Assembly (NCBI GenBank): GCA_001438205.1
Contig: LICG01000008.1
Location: 1 to 57,504 of the forward strand
Direction: 5' to 3'
DNA from: Cryomorphaceae bacterium BACL7 MAG-120322-bin74
GTDB lineage: Bacteria > Bacteroidota > Bacteroidia > Flavobacteriales > Schleiferiaceae
Length of the DNA: 57,504 bases
Numbering within the stretch: the first letter of the stretch is position 1; each line of letters starts with the position of its first letter. The translations under genes and the position numbers were made by a program. Positions 38,242 to 49,069 of the stretch are shown here, in pieces. The notes beneath the pieces are model-generated. The model had not been told where the DNA came from, searched no databases, and worked only from the letters and a program-made list of their open reading frames with translations.

Positions 38242-39441
38242 ATGCCCAATATATCACAGCGCGGCCAAGCCATGCCAGCTTCCCCTATCCGTAAACTGGT
38301 TCCATTTGCTGAAATTGCAGAGCAGAACGGTCACAAAGTATATTATCTCAATATTGGTCAACCCGATATACCAAGCCCTTTAGCGGCGATGGATGTCTTG
38401 CGTCACCATGAGATTAAAATCCTTGCCTACTCACATTCTGCTGGATTCCTTAGCTATCGTAAAAAGCTAGTGGATTACTATGCAAAGCATGCGATTCATA
38501 TTACCCCGCAAGAGATGATTGTGACGACGGGGGGATCAGAAGCCCTCGCCATTGCCATGGGGGCTATTTTGGACCCGGGTGATGAAATCATCATTCCAGA
38601 ACCCTACTACGCAAATTATTTAGGCTTTGCCACTGGCTCCGGCGCTGTCGTTGTGCCTGTCGTAAGCAGCATTGAAAGTGGATTCCAGCTGCCTTCAATG
38701 TTAGAGATTGAAGCCTTGATTACGCCTAAAACAAAAGCCCTTCTGTTGTGCAATCCCGGAAATCCCACCGGTAAATTGTATTCTAAAAAAGAACTTTTGC
38801 AGGTGCGGAAAATCGCTTTAAAGCATGACATCTTCATTATAGCCGATGAAGTCTACCGCGAATTTACCTACGACCGCCATAAACACACCTCCGTGATGAG
38901 CCTTGAAGGCATGGAGGAGCACGCAGTCCTCATTGATTCCGTATCAAAGCGCTATAGCATGTGTGGAGCACGGATTGGATTGCTCGCGTCAAAGAACATC
39001 CATTTTATGGCTTCTGCGATGCGATTTGCGCAAGCGCGTCTCTCGCCCCCCACTTTTGAACAGATTGCCGCAGAGACGGCCCTAGATACGCCTGATAGCT
39101 ACTTTAAGGAGGTGAATGTAGAATACACCAAGCGCCGTGACTATTTGATTGCCCGCCTGAATGACATGGACGGCGTGTTCTGTCCAAAACCTGCGGGTGC
39201 TTTTTATTGCATGGCGCAGCTCCCAGTTGAAAACTCGGACCACTTCTGCCAATGGATGCTTGAATCTTTTGACCACGAAGGCAATACTGTAATGATGGCG
39301 CCCGCGGGAGGGTTTTATACCGACTCTTCGATGGGCGCTCAGCAAGTTCGCTTGGCCTACGTGCTTGATGTGGAGGATCTCACAATAGCGATGGACGCCC
39401 TTGAAGTTGGACTAAAAGTCTACCCGTACCGTACATCATGA
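38242..39441 (+). CDS. Class I/II pyridoxal-phosphate aminotransferase
   Basis: Fold type I aminotransferase of 399 residues, in the aspartate/aromatic aminotransferase group (AspC-like). The N-terminal LNIGQPDIPSP is followed by VTTGGSEALAIAM. LLCNPGNPTGKLYSKKEL and IIADEVYREFTYD also match. The Schiff-base lysine is Lys236 in DSVSKRYSMCGARIG, and the substrate-carboxylate Arg lies near QVRLAYVLD. Aspartate is the likely amino donor, but the sequence does not decide the exact pair. Its last four bases overlap murB. Confidence 0.92.
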   Translation: MPNISQRGQAMPASPIRKLVPFAEIAEQNGHKVYYLNIGQPDIPSPLAAMDVLRHHEIKILAYSHSAGFLSYRKKLVDYYAKHAIHITPQEMIVTTGGSEALAIAMGAILDPGDEIIIPEPYYANYLGFATGSGAVVVPVVSSIESGFQLPSMLEIEALITPKTKALLLCNPGNPTGKLYSKKELLQVRKIALKHDIFIIADEVYREFTYDRHKHTSVMSLEGMEEHAVLIDSVSKRYSMCGARIGLLASKNIHFMASAMRFAQARLSPPTFEQIAAETALDTPDSYFKEVNVEYTKRRDYLIARLNDMDGVFCPKPAGAFYCMAQLPVENSDHFCQWMLESFDHEGNTVMMAPAGGFYTDSSMGAQQVRLAYVLDVEDLTIAMDALEVGLKVYPYRTS

Positions 39442-40457
39442 TTTGGGAGGAGCATGCTTCACTTGCCCCGTATAACACCTTTGGTATTGATGCCAAGGCT
39501 GAGCGTTTGGTGCATTTAACGCATGAATCCTCCGTCCAGGCCTACTACCAGCATCCCAATGGGTATGCAAAACAGACCCTTCTACTCAGTGGCGGAAGCA
39601 ATCTTTTGCTCTGTAATGATGTCCCGGGCACCACCGCGCGTATTGCATGGAAGGGCATGGCGATTACCGAAGAAACCGATGACCATGTTTGGTTGAAGGT
39701 TAGCGCCGGTGAGTCTTGGCATGAAACCGTTCTCTATACGGTACAGCAAGGCTGGGGAGGATTGCAAAATCTATCCTTAATCCCCGGCTTGGTGGGCGCC
39801 GCACCCGTTCAAAACATTGGTGCCTATGGCGTTGAAGTGGCCGACACCTTGGAGTCGCTTTCCTACTTCCATTGGGAGAAAGGCGAAGCGCATACCTTGA
39901 CCGCAGCAGAGTGTGCCTTTGGCTACCGGGATAGCCTCTTTAAGCGCAGCTGGAAAGGCAAAGGCGTGATCCTCTCCGTTACCTTTAAATTGACCAAGCA
40001 TAGCCACGTTTTAAAAACGACGTATGGTGCCCTTCAAGAAGAATTACACCGAATGGATTTGGCCCCTAGTGTACAGAACATTTCGGATGCTGTGATCGCC
40101 ATCAGACAAAGCAAATTACCCGATCCTAAGGTGCTCGGAAATTCAGGCAGCTTTTTCAAAAATCCTGCACTTTCAGCAGCACAAGTAAAAACATTGGCAA
40201 GCAAGCATCCAGCCATCCCTCAATATCCCCAGCCTGACGGCACCATAAAAGTGGCTGCCGGGTGGCTCATTGAACAAGCGGGCTGGAAAGGGGAACGCGT
40301 CGGAAATGTAGGAATGCATGCCCAGCAAGCGCTAGTTTTAGTGAATTATGGGGGAGCAAGCGGCCCGGAACTCTGGGCGCATGCCCAAAGGGTGCAATCC
40401 AGCGTAGCAGAACAATTTGGGGTGCGACTTGAGCCTGAAGTCAACTTGATTGGGTAA
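39438..40457 (+). CDS. murB: UDP-N-acetylenolpyruvoylglucosamine reductase
   Basis: FAD enzyme that reduces UDP-GlcNAc-enolpyruvate to UDP-MurNAc in peptidoglycan synthesis. The 339-residue length and domain order match the E. coli type I form. Motifs are LAPYNTFGIDAKA, LLSGGSNLLL, LIPGLVGAAPVQNIGAYG, the proton-donor serine in LGNSGSFFKNP, and the terminal glutamate in RLEPEVNLIG. It overlaps the aminotransferase by four bases (ATGA). Confidence 0.97.
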   Translation: MIWEEHASLAPYNTFGIDAKAERLVHLTHESSVQAYYQHPNGYAKQTLLLSGGSNLLLCNDVPGTTARIAWKGMAITEETDDHVWLKVSAGESWHETVLYTVQQGWGGLQNLSLIPGLVGAAPVQNIGAYGVEVADTLESLSYFHWEKGEAHTLTAAECAFGYRDSLFKRSWKGKGVILSVTFKLTKHSHVLKTTYGALQEELHRMDLAPSVQNISDAVIAIRQSKLPDPKVLGNSGSFFKNPALSAAQVKTLASKHPAIPQYPQPDGTIKVAAGWLIEQAGWKGERVGNVGMHAQQALVLVNYGGASGPELWAHAQRVQSSVAEQFGVRLEPEVNLIG

Positions 40458-40482
40458 TCCACGTCACACCTTCTTTGCTGCG

Positions 40483-40490
40483 TACCTTTG
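40483..40490 (+). promoter_or_regulatory. TAnnTTTG -7 box, Cys miniprotein
   Basis: TACCTTTG lies four bases before the ATG at 40495, predicting a leaderless mRNA for the miniprotein independent of murB. Confidence 0.65.
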
Positions 40491-40494
40491 TCCT

Positions 40495-40698
40495 ATGGCA
40501 ACCTTGAAATTAATTCTTGTCGCAGCCGCCCTTTTGGGTTTAGGCCTATTCGGTATGGCTGTCAAGATCTGGGCAAAGAAAGATGGCGAGTTTTCCGGTA
40601 CCTGCGCTTCAAATTCTCCCTTTCTAAACAAAGAAGGCGAAGCTTGCTCTTTCTGTGGTGCCATGCCTGAAGAGCAATGTCAAAAAGAGTCTAGCTAG
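40495..40698 (+). CDS. Four-cysteine membrane miniprotein, candidate NqrM-like factor
   Basis: A 67-residue protein with one N-terminal transmembrane helix (about residues 4-23) and a small tail with cysteines at 37, 51, 54 and 62, in GEFSGTCASNSPFLNKEG and EACSFCGAM. The layout and the KK-x(3)-F-x-G-T-C segment recall proteobacterial NqrM (DUF539), a one-helix, Cys-rich factor needed to assemble the iron centre of the Na+-NQR; there the helix is followed by K-K-x-x-I-x-G-S-C. Here the gene converges on apbE and the nqr operon with 16 bases between stops. Similar short membrane proteins occur, as I recall, in other flavobacteria as unnamed proteins. The role is inferred, not shown. Confidence 0.72.
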   Translation: MATLKLILVAAALLGLGLFGMAVKIWAKKDGEFSGTCASNSPFLNKEGEACSFCGAMPEEQCQKESS

Positions 40699-40714: not shown

Positions 40715-41800
40715 CTAATTTGAAGGGAGGGTCGACCAAATCTGCAGACCCTTCTCCCTATCGCCATAGATAAGAACGGCATCCCATCCTGGATGTTTCG
40801 CGATCCATTCTTGGGTTTTGTGCAACCCCATCGCCATAGCCGCTGTTGCCATTCCATCCGCAAGCGCACATTTGGGCCCAATCATAGTAGCACTCAAGAC
40901 ATCTGTTTGAATGGGCCAGCCTGTTTTAGCATCCAGCGTGTGCCCATAATGTTGACCTGTGACAGGGTCTACTTTGAAATTTCGATAGTTTCCACTAGTG
41001 GCCAGTGCGCGCTCATTCAACGTCACTGTTTGGGCAAAATCCGCACGCTTGCCTTGCTCCGGTTGTTCAATTCCCACCTTGAAGGAAGAACCGTCTAGTT
41101 TCTTTCCGAAGGTGCGCACTTCTCCCCCAATTTCAACAAAAGCCGCAGTGGCGCCATGCGCACGCAAGGAATCGCACACAATGTCAACAGAATGACCTTG
41201 GGAAAAGCTCATAAAATTGAGCTGGGTCTTGCCGGCAGGGCATGCTTTAGCGACATGATCTAGTACTACTTTCATGGCGGAGTTCCCTGTGCAGGCACGT
41301 GCCAAATCAAACCAGCAGGTATCCCCGACATGAAGCATCAAGCGAGATAATCCGACTGTATCATCCGCCGCAAGCGTCGCCGATCCAACGCCAAATCCCC
41401 AGGCTTCAATTACAGGCGCCAAACTAGGATCTAAAGCCCCATCGGTGAGGAGGTACAGTGTACGGCCCAGTTGAAGGAGTTCGCAGAGATAGGCATCATC
41501 CGGAGCAACCATGGCCTGTTTATTTAACACGGACACCAAAGAGTTGCTGTCCCAGGGGGATGCCACACGGTTATAGTCTGCAAGCCAACGCTGAAGATCT
41601 TCGGCTGTCACAGAGGCTGGCCCGTATACCTTAATATGAAAGGTGGTGGCTTGCGCTTCCCCTTCAAAAAGAAACGATTCCTCTTGCGGCGTGCATCCCA
41701 CGGCCAATAAAAGAATAGGTACTACCACGGCGCGTAAAGCGCCAAAAAAAGCGGCTATGGCCGCTTTTTTTTTATGGGCTTTTTTACCCTCCAAAATCAT
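40715..41800 (-). CDS. apbE: FAD:protein FMN transferase, lipoprotein
   Basis: ApbE covalently attaches FMN from FAD to threonines of NqrB and NqrC in the periplasm. The 361-residue product has a lipoprotein signal ([12 protein letters not shown]) after a Lys-rich start. [22 protein letters not shown] and [13 protein letters not shown] match the family's FAD- and Mg-binding sites. It directly follows nqrF, the usual order. The start at 41800 overlaps the nqrF end by 17 bases and puts a terminator-like hairpin within the first codons; a GTG at about 41725 would avoid the hairpin but leave a poor signal peptide, and an ATG at 41839 would lie deeper in nqrF. The start is therefore uncertain. Confidence 0.93.
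41744..41773 (-). terminator. Hairpin between nqrF and apbE, inside apbE start
   Basis: On the minus strand the stem GCGGC / GCCGC with loop CATA is preceded by nine A and followed by seven T, the shape of an intrinsic terminator. It begins about ten bases after the nqrF stop and encodes the [10 protein letters not shown] part of the proposed ApbE signal peptide. A second small hairpin (GGCGC / GCGCC) follows at 41728-41742. It may reduce apbE expression relative to nqrA-F. Confidence 0.6.
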
Positions 41801-43091
41801 CAAAGGATACGTTCTCTTCGGGCACACCAAAATCATCAACCATTTTAAGGACAGCTGCGTTCATCATAGGGGGTCCACAGAAATAATATTCAATATCCTC
41901 TGGCGCATCATGCTTGGATAGATAATTGTCCATCAAGGCTTGGTGAACAAATCCGACAAAGCCGTCTCCGTCATCCTCCATGCTTGACTTTGCTTTCCAA
42001 TTGTCTTCAGGCATTGGTTCAGAAAGCACCATGTTAAAGCTGAAATTAGGGAACTCCTTCTCGATGTTCTGAAAATCATCGATATAGAACAATTCACGAC
42101 GCGAGCGTCCGCCATACCAATAACTCACTTTTCGACCTGTTTTCAAGGTATGGAAGAGATGGAAAAGGTGTGAACGCATCGGCGCCATCCCTGCACCACC
42201 CCCGATATAGATCATTTCCGACTCCGTTTCCTTGATGTGGAATTCACCATAAGGACCCGAAATAGTCACTTTATCACCGGGCTTCAAGTCAAATACATAC
42301 GAAGAACACACGCCTGGATTGACCTCCATCCAACCATTCTTAGAACGATCCCATGGTGGCGTGGCAATACGAATGTTCAACATAATAATGTTGCCTTCCG
42401 CTGGGTGATTGGCCATCGAATAGGCACGGAAAAGTGGCTCAGGGTTGCTCATCTTGAGATCCCACAAACCAAACTTATCCCACTCAGATTGAAACTCATC
42501 AGGCTTTTTACCCAATCGTGGATGCGCGGTGATATCCAAATTCTTGAAATCTACATTGAGGGATGGGACATCCACTTGGATATAGCCACCGGCCAAGAAA
42601 TCCAAGTGCTCACCTTCGGGCAACCTGACCACAAACTCTTTAATGAAGGAGGCCACATTGTAATTGGACACAACTTCACACTCCCATTTTTTGATGCCAA
42701 AAATTTCATCAGGAACCTTCACGACCATGTCGTTTTTCACTTTCACCTGGCAGCCTAGGCGCCAGTCGTCCGCGATTTGCTTGCGGTTAAAGAAGCCCGT
42801 TTCAGTTGGAAGAATTTCGCCACCGCCTTCTAGGATTTGACACTTGCACATTCCACACGTACCGCCACCGCCACAGGCAGAGGGAAGGAAAATCTTTTGG
42901 CTACTCAAAGTGCCCAAAAGGGTACTACCGGACTCAACTTCAACGGTATTGCCATTGATTTCGAGCTTAACAGGTCCAGAGGGGCTCAAGCGTGCCTTGG
43001 CTTGTAATAGGATGGTCACCAAGGCTAAAATGACCAAAGTGAATACCCCAATGCTGACCATAAGGGTGAGAGAAGAGGCTGCTAAAAACAT
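41784..43091 (-). CDS. nqrF: Na+-NQR subunit F
   Basis: NADH-oxidising entry subunit of the sodium-pumping NADH:quinone reductase. The 435-residue product has one N-terminal membrane helix ([18 protein letters not shown]). A plant-type [2Fe-2S] domain follows, with ligands in [16 protein letters not shown] and a later Cys in DDWRLGCQV. The FAD domain has the RAYSMANHP motif, and the NADH domain has [16 protein letters not shown]. The C-terminal DDFGG is typical. It is the last subunit gene of nqrABCDEF. Confidence 0.98.
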
Positions 43092-43105: not shown

Positions 43106-43723
43106 TTAAAGTTTGATTCCCATGAAGCTCATGAAGGCCATGCCCATTAAGCCTGTGATAATAAAGGTGATACCCAAACCACGCAAAGGCGCAGGAACAT
43201 GCGAATACTTAAGTCGTTCACGAATAGCGGCAATAGCTACGATGGCAAGGAGCCAGCCAATCCCGGATCCGAATCCAAAGACAGTTGCTTGCCCAATGTT
43301 TTCATAGGCGCGTTCCTGCATGAACAATGAACCACCCAGAATGGAACAATTTACCGCAATCAAAGGCAAGAAAATACCTAAGGCAGAATACAAAGCAGGG
43401 GCGAATTTTTCGACGACCATTTCAACCAATTGTACCATGGCTGCAATCACCGCAATGAACATAATGAAGCTCAAAAAGCTCAAATCTAATTCGGCAAAAG
43501 ACGGGTCTAACCACGCAAGTGCGCCTTGCTTGAGCACCTTCGTTTCCAAAAGGTAGTTGACAGGTAACGTGATGGTCAAGACAAAAGTGACCGCTAAGCC
43601 AAGGCCCATGGCCGTTTTTACTGTCTTAGATACCGCTAGGTATGAACACATGCCTAAGAAATAGGCAAAAATCATATTGTCAATGAAGATGCTCTTGACA
43701 AAGATGTTGAGGATGTCTTGCAT
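43106..43723 (-). CDS. nqrE: Na+-NQR subunit E
   Basis: Membrane subunit of 205 residues with about six helices; with NqrD it holds the membrane [2Fe-2S] centre. The conserved cysteines are seen in [12 protein letters not shown] and [14 protein letters not shown]. The gene lies 12 bases after nqrD and 14 bases before nqrF. Confidence 0.98.
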
Positions 43724-43735
43724 AATTCCTAAAGC

Positions 43736-44398
43736 TTAGTCTTTTTCAATCAAAGAAGGGGTCTTGGCGCGCTGTACCCAAATGATCAGCGCCACGACAA
43801 TCAAGGCCATAGGAGGCAGTAACATCATCCCATTGTTTTTGTACCCTAGATCATATAGCCCCATCCATTCTACAACGGGATAGTCATAAAGCGTTCCATT
43901 CCCTAACAATTCGCGAAAGAAGGCGACAATGATCAAGATGCCCCCATATGCTGCGCCATTGCCTAGTCCATCTAAGAATGATTTCCAAGGTGTATTGCCC
44001 AATGAAAAGGCTTCAATGCGGCCCATGATAATACAGTTGGTAATGATCAAGCCTACAAAAACTGAAAGCTGTTTGGAGACATCATATACATAGGCCTTTA
44101 AAACTTGGTCAACTAAGATGACCAACGAGGCTACCACCACCAATTGCACAATGATTCGGATACGATTGGGTATCATATTGCGCATCAAGGAAGTGATCAC
44201 GTTCGCCAAAGCTGTAACCACTATGACGGAAAGGCCCATCACGATGGCAGGTTTTAACTTGACCGTTATGGCCAAGGCACTACAAATACCCAATACTTGA
44301 ACCGTAATAGGATTGTTCGCGTTCATAGGGTCAATCAAAAGGCTGCGATTCTTTTTTGAGAACAAGCCTTCCTTCTTAGGTTTCATTTCCGCGCTCAT
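43736..44398 (-). CDS. nqrD: Na+-NQR subunit D
   Basis: Membrane subunit of 220 residues, homologous to NqrE in inverted topology. The iron-ligand cysteines lie in VLGICSALAITV and IITNCIIMGRIEAFS. The start at MSAEMKPKKEGLFSKKN overlaps the nqrC stop as ATGA; a longer frame upstream would overlap nqrC without similarity to the family. A cytoplasmic Lys-rich N-terminus is longer than in Vibrio. Confidence 0.97.
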   Translation of the reverse strand: MSAEMKPKKEGLFSKKNRSLLIDPMNANNPITVQVLGICSALAITVKLKPAIVMGLSVIVVTALANVITSLMRNMIPNRIRIIVQLVVVASLVILVDQVLKAYVYDVSKQLSVFVGLIITNCIIMGRIEAFSLGNTPWKSFLDGLGNGAAYGGILIIVAFFRELLGNGTLYDYPVVEWMGLYDLGYKNNGMMLLPPMALIVVALIIWVQRAKTPSLIEKD

Positions 44399-45138
44399 AT
44401 TGAAGCAGTAATTAACGTTGAGTCCAAAGTTTCGGTCATCTCGGGACGTGCACTTTCTGAAGAAATAGATTTGAGATACGCCTTGTAAGGGGCAAGGCAA
44501 TCCGAAATCATGCTCTGGACACCTACTGAGGTAATTGTGCCTCCAGATATTCCATCAACCTGTTGGTCACCTGAAGCATTCCCTTTGCGCACTTCAATCC
44601 CCATATACTGGTCAGTGAACAACACTTTGCCAGGAAATTGGTCTTGGAAAATAGGCGTGGCAATTTCTGCTCCGAGACCTGGGGTTTCTTTTGAGTGTCC
44701 AAATGTGGCGCCAAGGATGGTATTGCCATCTCCTTTCAGGGCAAAAAAGCCCCAGATTGGACCCCAAAGACCTTTACCACGCAAAGGAATCACGTAGAAG
44801 GTTTCATCGCCCACTTCCGCTTTGTACAATGGCACCTCACGGGTAGCAGCTGACATTGCGACGGCTTTTGCCATGTCAATATCAAAGGGAGAAATAGCCG
44901 ATTCAACCACTTGACCATCTTGAATGACCAACTGCTCTTTGATATACAAAGCAAACAATGAATCAGAATTTTCACCCTTAATCCCAATCGACGCCAGGAT
45001 ATCGGATTTCTTTTCTAATTCGACGTTTTTGTCCTGTAAAGGCTTCAATGAGGTAGCTGCTATAGAGAGCAGGGCTGCCACAAGAACAACCATCACCACC
45101 GCGAAGATGTAGGTATACTTATTTGAATTGATATTCAT
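44395..45138 (-). CDS. nqrC: Na+-NQR subunit C
   Basis: Subunit with one N-terminal membrane helix (YIFAVVMVVLVAALLSIAATSL) and a periplasmic domain carrying covalent FMN. The flavinylation motif is DGISGGTITS, where Thr201 should receive FMN from ApbE. The 247-residue length is typical. It is separated from nqrB by four bases. Confidence 0.97.
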   Translation of the reverse strand: MNINSNKYTYIFAVVMVVLVAALLSIAATSLKPLQDKNVELEKKSDILASIGIKGENSDSLFALYIKEQLVIQDGQVVESAISPFDIDMAKAVAMSAATREVPLYKAEVGDETFYVIPLRGKGLWGPIWGFFALKGDGNTILGATFGHSKETPGLGAEIATPIFQDQFPGKVLFTDQYMGIEVRKGNASGDQQVDGISGGTITSVGVQSMISDCLAPYKAYLKSISSESARPEMTETLDSTLITASI

Positions 45139-45142
45139 GATA

Positions 45143-46339
45143 CTAGGCTTTAGCGCGCTTTAAACGCTTTTGAATATTTGCATTTACCACATAATGGTCA
45201 ATTAATGGCGCCATGACATTCATGAAGAGGATGGCCAACATCATTCCTTCTGGGTATGCGGGGTTAAAGACGCGAATCATGATCCCCAAGAATCCTACCA
45301 AGAATCCGTATATCCACTTTCCTCTTTCCGTATGCGCTGCAGAAACAGGATCTGTCGCCATAAAAACGGTAGCAAAAGCCCAACTTCCAAAGACCAAATG
45401 GTAATAGAAGGGGATGCTCATAAACTGCTCTTGAGATTCGGTCAACATATAAGGCGCGGCCCAATTAAAGAGCAAGCCCATCGAAATGGCACCCAAGGTG
45501 GAACCCAGCATAATTTTCCATGAACCAATCCCCGTGGCAATCAAATAGATACCGCCCAGAACAATCAAAAGCGTGCTTGTTTCGCCAATAGAACCGGGTA
45601 TCAAACCCACAAAGGCATCCCAAGCGCTAAAGGAAGTTGTCCCCGTGGTGGCGTATTGCCCTAGAGCAGTTGCCCCAGAGAATCCATCCACCACTTTCTG
45701 ACCGGCTTCAACAGACGTGTTGATCCAAACCTTGTCACCTGACATAAAGGAAGGATAGGCAAAGAAAGCAAAAGCTCGAGCCGTTAAGGCGGGGTTTAGC
45801 AAGTTCATCCCAGTACCACCAAAAACTTCCTTGCCAATTAAGACGGCAAAAATGGTGGAGATAGCCACCATCCATAAAGGCATGTCAATCGGCATGGTCA
45901 TCGGAATCAGCAAACCTGAGACCAAGAAGCCTTCGTTAACCGGATGGCGATTGCGGCCAGCAAAGTAGATCTCTACTCCTAGTCCTGCCATATACGTCAC
46001 GGCAATCATCGGTACAATCTTCCAAGCGCCGAACAGGAAGTTGTCCATGGTAAAGAACTGAGCCCAGCCTGAAGCATTGGCCAATTCATCAATGGCTTTA
46101 AAATGCTGATAACCCCCGTTAAAGATGCCAAAGATCAAGGCAGGCACTAAGGCAAAGATGACCGTCACCATGGTGCGCTTAAGGTCAATAGCATCGCGCA
46201 CATGGGCACCGCTGTGGGCGTTGTGGTCAGGGACAAACATCATCGTCTCCAATGCATTGTGCAAGGGATACAGAGGCTTGAGCTTGCCCGTCGTTACCGC
46301 TGGGCGCGTGGCGTCAAATATATTTTGAAGGAATTTCAT
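45143..46339 (-). CDS. nqrB: Na+-NQR subunit B
   Basis: Ten-helix membrane subunit of 398 residues that carries covalent FMN and riboflavin and forms part of the sodium path. The FMN acceptor is Thr224 in GFSGATALGQ, recognised by ApbE. GRNRHPVNEGFLVSGLLIPMTMP and FMATDPVSAAHTERGKWIYG are conserved family segments. It lies between nqrA and nqrC. Confidence 0.98.
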   Translation of the reverse strand: MKFLQNIFDATRPAVTTGKLKPLYPLHNALETMMFVPDHNAHSGAHVRDAIDLKRTMVTVIFALVPALIFGIFNGGYQHFKAIDELANASGWAQFFTMDNFLFGAWKIVPMIAVTYMAGLGVEIYFAGRNRHPVNEGFLVSGLLIPMTMPIDMPLWMVAISTIFAVLIGKEVFGGTGMNLLNPALTARAFAFFAYPSFMSGDKVWINTSVEAGQKVVDGFSGATALGQYATTGTTSFSAWDAFVGLIPGSIGETSTLLIVLGGIYLIATGIGSWKIMLGSTLGAISMGLLFNWAAPYMLTESQEQFMSIPFYYHLVFGSWAFATVFMATDPVSAAHTERGKWIYGFLVGFLGIMIRVFNPAYPEGMMLAILFMNVMAPLIDHYVVNANIQKRLKRAKA

Positions 46340-46353
46340 CGTCTACGTTCCTA

Positions 46354-47694
46354 TTAATTCATTTCGGTATGGAGAATATCCAAAGCTTCGCGCACCATTT
46401 GTTGCAAAGGCTGCTTGGAGGTACAAATAACCTCACACAGCGCAAAGTCTTCCGGAACTACCTCATAGATCCCAAGGGCTTCCATTTTCTCAAGATCCTT
46501 TGCCCAAACTGATTTGAGTAACTGATTTGGATAGATGTCAAAAGGAAATACCCCGTCATATTGACCCGTTACCACGAAAGCCCGCTCCTCGCCATGCAAT
46601 TTGGTGCTGAGGTCGTAGGTTTTGCCAGGGGTCAACCAACTCATAAAAGTGCGACTGATCGAATATTTCCCGATACCCGGTAATACCCAACCCATAAAGT
46701 CCGTACCGCGACCTTCAGGAATCACACTAATCTGTGAGGCTGATGCGCTGAGGTACCCTTCTGCATCTATGGCCTTACCGGTTAGAACAGAACCTGCAAT
46801 GCATCGATAAACCCCTGCCTTCACTTCCTCTTTGAAGAAGTTGGTAAGGTTCATGCCACCGCGCAGTGTAAAATGACGTGGAGACTTCATGCCGCTACCC
46901 GCTACAGAGACCACGCGGTCAAGGCGATACTCACCTGTGAGAAATAGTTGACCCAGAATGGCCACGTCCTGGGCTTGGATCGCCCATACAACCTCCCCTT
47001 TATTCAAAGGTGATACGGCTGCAATGTGCACTGAAGTATTGCCAGCAGGGTGTTTTCCTTCAAAACGATGAAGGTCGACACCTTGCGCTTGGGTGAGAAC
47101 ATCTGATTTCTCCTCTTTATCCAGACTTAAGACCGTCTTGGGCGCAAGTAGATTAAGCACCTTTAAGCCGGCAGCAAAAGCTTCCTCTCTTCCGGCTAGT
47201 GCCAGTGCAGCAGAGGTTGCAAAGGGGGCTGTCGCCATGGCATTGACAAAAATGGCTTTGGGCGCATCGCTCGGATTAGCCACGCGTCCATAAGGACGCA
47301 TCTCTAATAGATTCCATGCACCTGAGTCCAAAAGGGTTGCTTTCGCTGCTTCCGCATCCTTAGGCAGCCCTGCGCCAAAATTCTTGTACCTGATCACCGC
47401 ATCCGCTTCAATTAATATTTGAAGTAGACGACGCTTTTCTCCACGAACAATAGCCTTCACCTTTCCACTAACGGGAGAAGTGACACGAATGCGGTTTTCT
47501 GCTTTGTCATAAAAGATGGCATCACCGGCTTGCACCGCGTCACCTTCTTTTACCGCAAGCTTAGGCGCTATGCCGATATATTCATCAGGAGAGAGGGCAA
47601 AGGAGGTTCCCAGCGGGAAATCCTCGACCTGAGCAGAGGGTGCGCCTACCATGGGTAGGTTCAAGCCTTTGCGTATGGTATGTGTTTTCGACAT
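46354..47694 (-). CDS. nqrA: Na+-NQR subunit A
   Basis: Peripheral cytoplasmic subunit of 446 residues, linked to ubiquinone binding. It opens with MSKTHTIRKGLNLPMVGAPS and has VKEGDAVQAGDAIFYDK (biotinyl-lipoyl-like region). VTSPVSGKVKAIVRGEKR and RPYGRVANPSDAPKAIFVNAM follow. It is the first gene of the operon. The start is the ATG 36 bases after a TACCTTTG box; the longer frame would extend over the promoter. Confidence 0.97.
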   Translation of the reverse strand: MSKTHTIRKGLNLPMVGAPSAQVEDFPLGTSFALSPDEYIGIAPKLAVKEGDAVQAGDAIFYDKAENRIRVTSPVSGKVKAIVRGEKRRLLQILIEADAVIRYKNFGAGLPKDAEAAKATLLDSGAWNLLEMRPYGRVANPSDAPKAIFVNAMATAPFATSAALALAGREEAFAAGLKVLNLLAPKTVLSLDKEEKSDVLTQAQGVDLHRFEGKHPAGNTSVHIAAVSPLNKGEVVWAIQAQDVAILGQLFLTGEYRLDRVVSVAGSGMKSPRHFTLRGGMNLTNFFKEEVKAGVYRCIAGSVLTGKAIDAEGYLSASASQISVIPEGRGTDFMGWVLPGIGKYSISRTFMSWLTPGKTYDLSTKLHGEERAFVVTGQYDGVFPFDIYPNQLLKSVWAKDLEKMEALGIYEVVPEDFALCEVICTSKQPLQQMVREALDILHTEMN

Positions 47695-47730
47695 GTCCAA
47701 GGATAAAATGGTCTCGAAAAAAATTTGGTG

Positions 47731-47738
47731 CAAAGGTA
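47731..47738 (-). promoter_or_regulatory. TAnnTTTG -7 box, nqr operon
   Basis: TACCTTTG on the minus strand, 36 bases before the nqrA ATG at 47694. It would drive nqrABCDEF and possibly apbE from a conventional leader of about 30 bases. Confidence 0.62.
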
Positions 47739-47782: not shown

Positions 47783-49069
47783 GTGTTAAAACAAATATTT
47801 TCTTGGTTCATGCTATTGGGACTTTCTTACTGTGCGTTTGCGCAAAAGGGAACCCCCGAAATAGCGCTCCACCAAGACTTCCGTTCATTTCAACTTTACC
47901 CGACAGGGGAGCCCCAAAGGCTGGCGGCAATTCCTTTGGGCGAAGCCCATGTCCTGCAATTGGCATTTGACGACCTCAGCGCCAACACACAAGCTTTAAA
48001 CTATACTTGGGTGCATTGCGACCGCAATTGGGCTGCTTCGCCCCTACTGTCTGCCGAATACCTGAATGGATTCATGGAAGGCCAATTAAACCAAGGTAAT
48101 CTCTCTTTTAATACCTACCAAGCCTATAGCCATTTTAGCATGGCCTTGCCTCAAAGCAATTGCATGCCGCGCATTTCCGGGAATTACTACCTGATACTAT
48201 TTGAAAATGATCCCGCCGAGTATCTTGTTAAGTATCCTGTGGTGATCTATGAGAATGCCGCTGGAATTCAGTCCTCCATTCATCAAACCGCACCGATTGA
48301 ATTAAGCCGCACACATCAGGAAGTGGATGCCTTGGCTGATCTCAGTAATTTTTCGGTCCAAAATCCTTTTGAAGATGTCCAATTGAGCATTGTACAAAAC
48401 AGAGATTGGCAGAGCGTTCGGGCATTTCAACCGCGTTATTTGCGCAATGGGCATTATGACTTTGATTACAACAATGGCGAAAATGCCTTTCCAGGAAATA
48501 ACATCTTTCGGTTTGTTGACGCTAAAAATATCCCCGTCCCAACGCTGCGCATACCCCGTTATGACCTTCAAGCATTATGGCATGCCTATGTGGTAAAAGA
48601 AAAGCCCAGAGGGATCGACCCATTTGTCAACCAAGACGATGCACGTGGCGCCTTTGTTCCAAGAAAGCAAAATGCCAATAGCCCCACAGAGGCTGATTAT
48701 GTCGTGCTCGATCTTTTTGTTGAAGACATCGAAAAATCAGGACATCGTCATCTGTACCTCGTCGGAGACTTCAATCAGTATCAACGCAAGGAGGAATACC
48801 AACTCATATTTGACCCTGAAAAAGGGGGTTACACCGCTAATATTCTTGTAAAACAGGGCTATCTCGAGTATCACTTGGCCGAATGGACGGGAGAGGAAGC
48901 GCAATGGGATTACACCTTCACCGAAGGCAATCATTGGAATTGTCCCAATGAATACACGCTTTTTTTATACCTGCGCCAGTGGGGGCAGCGTTATGATCGT
49001 GTGATTGGACACAGCCAGAACATTAGTGATGGGATTTTAGGGTTGAATATCCAAATCACCACTCCATAG
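47783..49069 (+). CDS. T9SS plug-domain protein (DUF5103)
   Basis: Exported protein of 428 residues in the family annotated as type IX secretion system plug protein (DUF5103). It is thought to close the SprA translocon channel on the periplasmic side. The start is GTG, giving MLKQIFSWFMLLGLSYCAFAQ, a clear signal peptide; an ATG at residue 10 is the alternative. Typical segments are YTWVHCDRNW, LSAEYLNGF, SGNYYLILFENDP and VYLVGDFNQY in the C-terminal immunoglobulin-like part (written here as RHLYLVGDFNQ). It is consistent with the T9SS cargo at 27.7-30.8 kb. Only a poor -7-like sequence (CAACTTTA) precedes it. Confidence 0.9.
   Translation: MLKQIFSWFMLLGLSYCAFAQKGTPEIALHQDFRSFQLYPTGEPQRLAAIPLGEAHVLQLAFDDLSANTQALNYTWVHCDRNWAASPLLSAEYLNGFMEGQLNQGNLSFNTYQAYSHFSMALPQSNCMPRISGNYYLILFENDPAEYLVKYPVVIYENAAGIQSSIHQTAPIELSRTHQEVDALADLSNFSVQNPFEDVQLSIVQNRDWQSVRAFQPRYLRNGHYDFDYNNGENAFPGNNIFRFVDAKNIPVPTLRIPRYDLQALWHAYVVKEKPRGIDPFVNQDDARGAFVPRKQNANSPTEADYVVLDLFVEDIEKSGHRHLYLVGDFNQYQRKEEYQLIFDPEKGGYTANILVKQGYLEYHLAEWTGEEAQWDYTFTEGNHWNCPNEYTLFLYLRQWGQRYDRVIGHSQNISDGILGLNIQITTP

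Follow-up and report, generated by a model that had tools for sequence, protein, structure and literature searches.

A one-helix cysteine miniprotein that accompanies Na+-NQR is a candidate maturation factor of the enzyme in Bacteroidota

The miniprotein family described here is real and widespread, and it is tied to Na+-NQR more tightly than the single stretch of DNA in which it was noticed could show. Since the miniprotein occurs in Bacteroidota almost exactly where NQR does, it is very probably a helper that finishes the iron centre of the enzyme. Most likely it is an NqrM-like protein that lies outside the NqrM profile and acts as the NQR maturation factor of the phylum. From the genome comparisons presented below we infer, with a probability of roughly three in four, that this NqrM-like protein is an NQR-specific maturation factor of Bacteroidota that helps to form the iron centre of NqrD and NqrE.

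Results

The miniprotein gene and its neighbours

The window is the whole stretch of 57,504 nucleotides analysed, from contig LICG01000008.1 of Cryomorphaceae bacterium BACL7 MAG-120322-bin74. On its plus strand, at 40495..40698, lies an ORF encoding 67 residues from an ATG start. The initial annotation, made from the sequence letters, had credited its product with one N-terminal helix, cysteines at positions 37, 51, 54 and 62, two lysines just past the helix and a G-[ST]-C motif. All of these features are present. The protein begins with MATLKLILVAAALLGLGLFGMAVKIWAKKDGEFSGTC, carries KK at 28-29 and G-T-C at 35-37, and has its cysteines at the four positions named. The codon of Cys37, within the motif F-x-G-[TS]-C, occupies 40603..40605, those of the Cys51-x2-Cys54 pair 40645..40656, and that of Cys62, the fourth cysteine, 40678..40680 (all on the plus strand). 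An AlphaFold model predicts a helix from residue 2 to residue 27 (codons 40498..40575, plus strand), with a mean pLDDT of 91-92 for the first 20 residues; for the tail, confidence is low (57-69 in block means past residue 30; pTM 0.35). This single predicted transmembrane helix is rich in K and R on its C-terminal side: averaged over 147 family members, the 15 residues following it contain 2.89 K+R, as against 0.49 before it. Under the positive-inside rule, the flank of a membrane helix that is richer in basic residues faces the cytoplasm, and the charge bias thus suggests that the tail of the miniprotein is cytoplasmic.

The gene appears to have its own promoter of the leaderless type, as had been claimed. 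The sequence TACCTTTG, a -7-like element at 40483..40490 of the plus strand, ends 4 nt before the ATG. It conforms to TAnnTTTG, which we take to be the Bacteroidota -7 motif. With start codons picked by a rule of our own, 101 of 146 family members have this motif ending at most 20 nt before the ATG, whereas 200 shuffles gave 2.9 on average and never more than 9; in 23 of the 146 the spacing is exactly 4 nt.

As the initial annotation had it, the miniprotein gene ends 16 bases from apbE (stop codon to stop codon), which is on the minus strand next to nqrA-F. The convergent apbE gene (40715..41839, minus strand) encodes an FAD:protein FMN transferase (PF02424, 195.9 bits); the ORF is listed from a TTG and its true start is probably further in. 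Beyond it, all on the minus strand, come nqrF (43091 down to 41784; TIGR01941, 595.6 bits), nqrE (43106..43723), nqrD (43736..44401), nqrC (44395..45138), nqrB (45143..46339) and nqrA (46354..47733, with the ORF listed from a TTG), every subunit scoring above the cut-off of its own NCBIfam equivalog. NqrE has Cys26 in LGMCS and Cys126 in AVNCS, and NqrD has its cysteines in LGICS and ITNCI. Both cysteines of each protein are kept in the window, in Parabacteroides, in Prevotella, in Providencia and in one genome of family f16 (see below). On the other side, profile matches identified two conserved upstream neighbours of the miniprotein gene on the plus strand, murB (39438..40457) and a gene for a PLP-dependent aminotransferase (38242..39441). 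At the far end of the nqr cluster, a gene encoding a type 9 secretion plug domain (47783-49069) is divergent from nqrA; in Parabacteroides a gene annotated DUF5103 (L050:1887-3155) occupies the same place beside nqrA.

A widespread family with variant cysteine patterns

Searches with the single miniprotein sequence returned matches in other genomes down to E = 2e-29, placing the ORF far beyond chance, and detected the family in 36 of the 198 genomes of a phylum sample. Nine columns are invariant among these 36 sequences (F33, G35, C37, P42, L44, C51, C54, G55 and C62), and the general core reads F-x-G-[TS]-C-x4-P-x-L-x6-C-x2-C-G-x(n)-C. The pattern GTCAS...SPFLNKEG...CSFCG, proposed earlier as a family signature, is common in its first element and not general in the other two: among 147 members GTCAS is found in 120, SPFLNKEG in 39 and CSFCG in 36, counts that lean high because the members were taken from loci by a script requiring such motifs. 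The four-Cys pattern occurs in 136 of these 147 motif-selected members; at least nine divergent family members lack it. In a class sample, a profile search found the miniprotein in 143 of 395 genomes. A scan of a named genome collection matched at least 591 stretches, at least 589 of which encode a relative of the miniprotein. Among the matches listed, the 80 loci that were kept bear titles of Flavobacteriales and other Bacteroidota, Balneolaceae such as Gracilimonas included. One of these 80, from Schleiferiaceae, is very close to the window (87% for the miniprotein, 99% for NqrE).

Some members depart from the core in a way that the initial annotation had not foreseen. In divergent sequences of families f69, f89, f98 and f99 (L169-L172, L174-L178 and L197), FPN/D-x-x-H or a similar sequence replaces FxGTC; Cys51 is kept, Cys54 and Cys62 are lost, and a histidine stands in the place of Cys37. 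Cys51 is the sole invariant column across 24 aligned variants. We take these His/Cys forms to be from Bacteroidales, an assignment backed for f89 only, by the NqrF of G479, which is 68% identical to that of Parabacteroides and 59% to that of the window; in f69, the NqrF of G262 is no closer to that of Prevotella (59%) than to that of the window (62%). Since three of the four cysteines are missing from some divergent members, iron binding by four cysteines is not universal in the family. Judging from its residues, the His/Cys site could still bind metal. Families f94 and f103 (L179-L183) have further divergent tails, for example KSCTAKHRLMHEKGLDCEGC and RRCANVDPYTGDRSNCVCG; their genomes are nqrF-positive except G462.

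Co-occurrence with NQR

All 36 carriers of the miniprotein in the phylum sample have an nqrF above the TIGR01941 cut-off. Another 154 genomes have neither gene, and eight have nqrF only. Seven of these eight belong to family f16; the remaining one, G167, was counted as nqrF-only though doubtful, its match, inside a frame of 779 aa, covering only profile positions 129-403, the reductase half. Among the 395 genomes of the class sample, 140 have both genes, 12 have nqrF only, three the miniprotein only and 240 neither. Thus, the miniprotein is found in 140 of the 152 genomes with nqrF and in three of the 243 without it (Fisher p = 6e-88, with genomes treated as independent though related). The co-occurrence with nqr that the initial annotation had called for was therefore borne out: nqrF accompanies every one of the 36 carriers of the phylum sample and all but three of the 143 carriers of the class sample. 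The three in question are G229, which is 69% complete, G462, which is 92% complete, and G347, whose copy is a remnant interrupted by a stop codon.

A broader profile recovered the miniprotein in two of the 12 nqrF-only genomes of the class sample. Neither profile detected a copy in the other ten of the 152 nqrF genomes, seven of the ten being less than 90% complete. For nqrF genomes with a completeness of 90% or more and a contamination of no more than 5%, the two profiles together place the miniprotein in 134 of 137. The exceptions, G257, G312 and G510, show no copy though they are 92-95% complete.

Because Fisher values treat related genomes as independent, contrasts within genera provide better evidence. 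In genus g3, two genomes have both nqrF and the miniprotein and seven have neither; the corresponding figures are one and three in genus g61, and one and two in genus g76. Genus g198 includes G373, with nqrF and an intact miniprotein gene, and G347, in which no nqrF match was found and the miniprotein gene survives as the stop-interrupted remnant (L173:509-607). The miniprotein and NQR have been lost together.

The related RNF complex does not share this association. An rnfB gene (TIGR01944), taken here as the mark of RNF, is above the cut-off in 29 genomes of the phylum sample, in many cases narrowly or only once neighbouring stretches had been included. The miniprotein is present in five of the 29, all of which also have nqrF, and in none of the 18 genomes with rnfB but without nqrF. 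The miniprotein thus ignores RNF and is specific for NQR.

Genomic linkage

Physical proximity to nqr genes is optional. Among the 80 named loci, some of which lie on contigs that end sooner, nqrF is within 6 kb of the miniprotein gene in 20 and apbE in 26, and murB is upstream in 53. In all 26 of the named loci with apbE that close, the two genes converge. Since linkage to nqr is found in only 20 of 80 loci, the coupling looks functional; it is neither a matter of simple kinship nor a by-product of linkage. The order aminotransferase-murB-miniprotein (38242-40698 in the window) is kept in many Flavobacteriales loci, including loci where neither nqr nor apbE was found nearby.

Relationship to NqrM

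NqrM is reportedly a protein with a single helix and four cysteines, the first of them essential, that delivers iron. The initial annotation had warned that profile searches might miss a Bacteroidota version of it, and indeed the NqrM profile, PF04400 (22-bit cut-off), gave no listing at E <= 10 for the window protein or any of the 36 phylum members with HMMER filters on. Scans of the same sequences against Pfam and NCBIfam returned nothing over the cut-offs; matches of the family to zinc-ribbon, FixS and FeoB-associated profiles were set aside as weak. Nor was a separate, true NqrM found elsewhere: PF04400 had no match in this genome or in any of the 198 phylum genomes (0/198). It was likewise empty in two of two Bacteroidales records, which represent parts of genomes. 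As controls, the NqrMs of Providencia and Aeromonas scored 80-84 bits against the same profile, which also found NqrM in two of two gammaproteobacterial records and in three of three alphaproteobacterial plasmids. Among the controls, apbE or nqrF immediately precedes NqrM, except in the three plasmids, where it is about 1.3 kb beyond nqrA. The NqrMs of these plasmids, from Paracoccus, Qingshengfaniella and Ruegeria (L193-L195), carry CLVC and match PF04400 over positions 1-29 only, with 30-33 bits, which is little more than the cut-off requires. A tblastn search of the plasmid collection with the miniprotein gave no match. The PF04400 test having failed, we do not file the miniprotein as a member of PF04400.

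Comparison of profiles revealed a similarity that resides mostly in the helix. Aligned by hhalign, the miniprotein family and NqrM gave a probability of 95% and an E-value of 1.7e-8. The tail-only alignment scored 12.0, to be compared with a mean of 9.2 for permuted columns (sd 2.3, maximum 18.7). Against 300 decoys in which the helix was left intact and only the tail columns were permuted, the real score of 45.2 fell just under the 99th percentile (45.7); for a larger alignment, the real score was reached by 15 of 300 decoys built in this way. Since these column-permutation controls trace the similarity mainly to the helix, homology is not claimed as proven.

Searches of 13,517 ORFs with hidden Markov models were run with filters off on ORFs from fetched loci enriched in the family, some loci being represented twice, so that neither counts nor E-values are independent of sampling. 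A model of the 147 family members matched the Qingshengfaniella NqrM at E = 8e-7, the alignment running through the helix, K..GSC and C-x2-C. The E-values of the other NqrMs ranged from 7e-4 to 0.78; some of them (0.019 to 0.78) came behind one unrelated ORF, at 0.013. Conversely, at E < 1 an NqrM model retrieved 14 NqrM-like ORFs (11 canonical and three of the f16 type), 37 family members and three others, with the family members ranking directly after the NqrMs; the 11 canonical NqrMs match by construction, the model having been built from NqrMs in the set. Together, these comparisons make common descent of the miniprotein and NqrM likely but unproven. The proposal that the miniprotein is a Bacteroidota version of NqrM is accordingly supported as regards its association with NQR and left short of proof as regards ancestry.

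A different small protein beside NQR in family f16

The seven f16 genomes with nqrF (L026-L031 and L200), which account for most of the nqrF-only class in the phylum sample, all encode downstream of nqrF another one-helix cysteine protein, marked by CCGGG[HN]C...C. In six of the seven, an ORF that looks ApbE-like by eye immediately precedes it. PF04400 matches none of the six f16 proteins scanned. Two small hypothetical ORFs that follow nqrF in Parabacteroides were dismissed, as they have no cysteine cluster.

Discussion

How might the miniprotein act? NqrM has been proposed to deliver iron or an iron-sulfur unit to the NqrD/NqrE site (PMC6209661, PMC12174285, as excerpted). By analogy, the N-terminal helix of the miniprotein would anchor it in the membrane beside the NqrD/NqrE core, with the tail, to judge from the charge bias, on the cytoplasmic side. 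The metal ligands of the tail, four cysteines in most members, might there bind iron, or iron and sulfide, near the membrane surface, and the tail would pass the metal to the four cysteines of NqrD and NqrE during assembly. In Bacteroides fragilis, mouse colonisation by an nqr deletion strain was largely, not fully, restored by the nqr operon (PMC7002350, available sections). This agrees with an unlinked helper that might have been left in the chromosome; it does not show one.

Other explanations have to be weighed against a maturation factor. The miniprotein might be a small accessory subunit that stays in the finished Bacteroidota NQR. Occurrence with NQR only and coupled loss fit a structural part equally well, and the divergent forms with few cysteines suit such a role better than that of a metal carrier. 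We nonetheless regard a subunit as unlikely, since the gene mostly lies apart from nqr (20 of the 80 named loci have nqrF within 6 kb) and the conserved spacing of cysteine and histidine residues resembles metal ligation. The structures solved so far leave the choice unsettled: three profiles yielded weak matches to unrelated proteins and no convincing chain, and the solved relatives of the window NqrE consist of one NqrE sequence and three of RnfA type, with no sign of a solved Bacteroidota NQR.

There are two further possibilities. The miniprotein might serve the flavinylation partner ApbE, for instance as a membrane adaptor, rather than the iron centre; apbE is its nearest conserved partner, and is convergent with it in every named locus where the two lie within 6 kb. 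ApbE, however, flavinylates RNF as well (PMC12174285, in the part consulted), yet none of the 18 genomes that have rnfB without nqrF carries the miniprotein, and 54 of the 80 named loci (some on contigs that end sooner) showed no apbE within 6 kb. A role centred on ApbE is therefore very improbable. Least credible to us is a regulatory role, in which the miniprotein would sense redox state or iron, control NQR genes or the respiratory chain, and be lost along with NQR. The cysteine-rich tail, probably facing the cytoplasm, and the leaderless-type promoter of the gene's own would suit a sensor, but the absence of any Pfam or NCBIfam match over the cut-off leaves it with no known DNA-binding or signalling domain. 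Moreover, the presence of a second, unlike one-helix cysteine protein downstream of nqrF in f16, as of NqrM in Proteobacteria, is easier to reconcile with a part that the enzyme needs than with a regulator.

A broader scheme can be put forward tentatively, though we hold it to be less likely than not. Every NQR might need a one-helix, metal-handling escort, of which the Bacteroidota protein would be the oldest surviving branch, with NqrM and the CCGGG form of f16 as later derivatives travelling with the nqr genes. Anaerobic Bacteroidales might have cut the escort down to the His/Cys form, iron delivery being easier without oxygen. If true, the scheme would imply a common ancestor for all three tails, and metal binding through His37 and Cys51 in the reduced form.

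The present work offers a concrete candidate for a maturation factor in Bacteroidota, found in hundreds of genome contigs (at least 589 stretches), and turns the insertion of the NqrD/NqrE iron centre into a directly testable question. For heterologous expression of Bacteroidota NQR, it suggests the miniprotein as a part that may be missing; E. coli, for one, has no nqr of its own (PMC7002350). The His/Cys variants limit the ways in which the miniprotein can handle metal. A literature search returned nothing joining NqrM with flavobacteria, an assembly factor with Bacteroides NQR, or the term "membrane or secreted protein" with nqr. The available portions of papers on Prevotella and Bacteroides NQR (PMC6560451, PMC8516057, PMC7002350) contain no mention of ApbE or maturation. 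Bacteroidota is thought to be where NQR arose (PMC12174285, as excerpted), yet within the partial texts covered no maturation factor is named for Bacteroidota NQR; the primary NqrM paper (Kostyrko 2016), which might remark on Bacteroidota, lies outside that scope.

Among known systems, RseC offers a parallel. As described in the part of PMC11729352 consulted, RseC is a four-Cys membrane protein of the SoxR-reducing Rsx system, and from this description it resembles the miniprotein in its small size, its membrane location and its cytoplasmic four-Cys motif, as well as in serving a complex of the RNF/NQR type. Unlike the miniprotein, RseC has two helices and Rsx rather than NQR as its partner, and an Fe-S cluster has been reported for its isolated N-terminal domain (PMC11729352, same part). 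The miniprotein and NqrM both have one N-terminal helix with basic residues directly after it, G-[ST]-C and three more cysteines; both go with NQR, and NqrM, like the miniprotein in the window, is encoded near apbE and nqr. The alphaproteobacterial NqrMs even have C-x2-C in common with the miniprotein. The motifs differ in detail, GTCAS..P.L......C..CG in the miniprotein as against GSCGGL.....C.C..PC in NqrM, as does the genetic arrangement, the miniprotein gene having its own promoter and being convergent or unlinked whereas nqrM is in the operon. Some divergent miniproteins, unlike NqrM, have a histidine for Cys37 and a single cysteine. The f16 protein shares with the miniprotein the single helix, the lysines and a cysteine cluster, but its tail is of another kind, with CCGGG-x-C...C and, in some cases, a His-rich stretch; in hhalign it aligns weakly with the miniprotein family (63%, helix only) and at 95% with NqrM. 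Thus, three unlike small proteins, the miniprotein, NqrM and the f16 form, appear to fill one place beside NQR.
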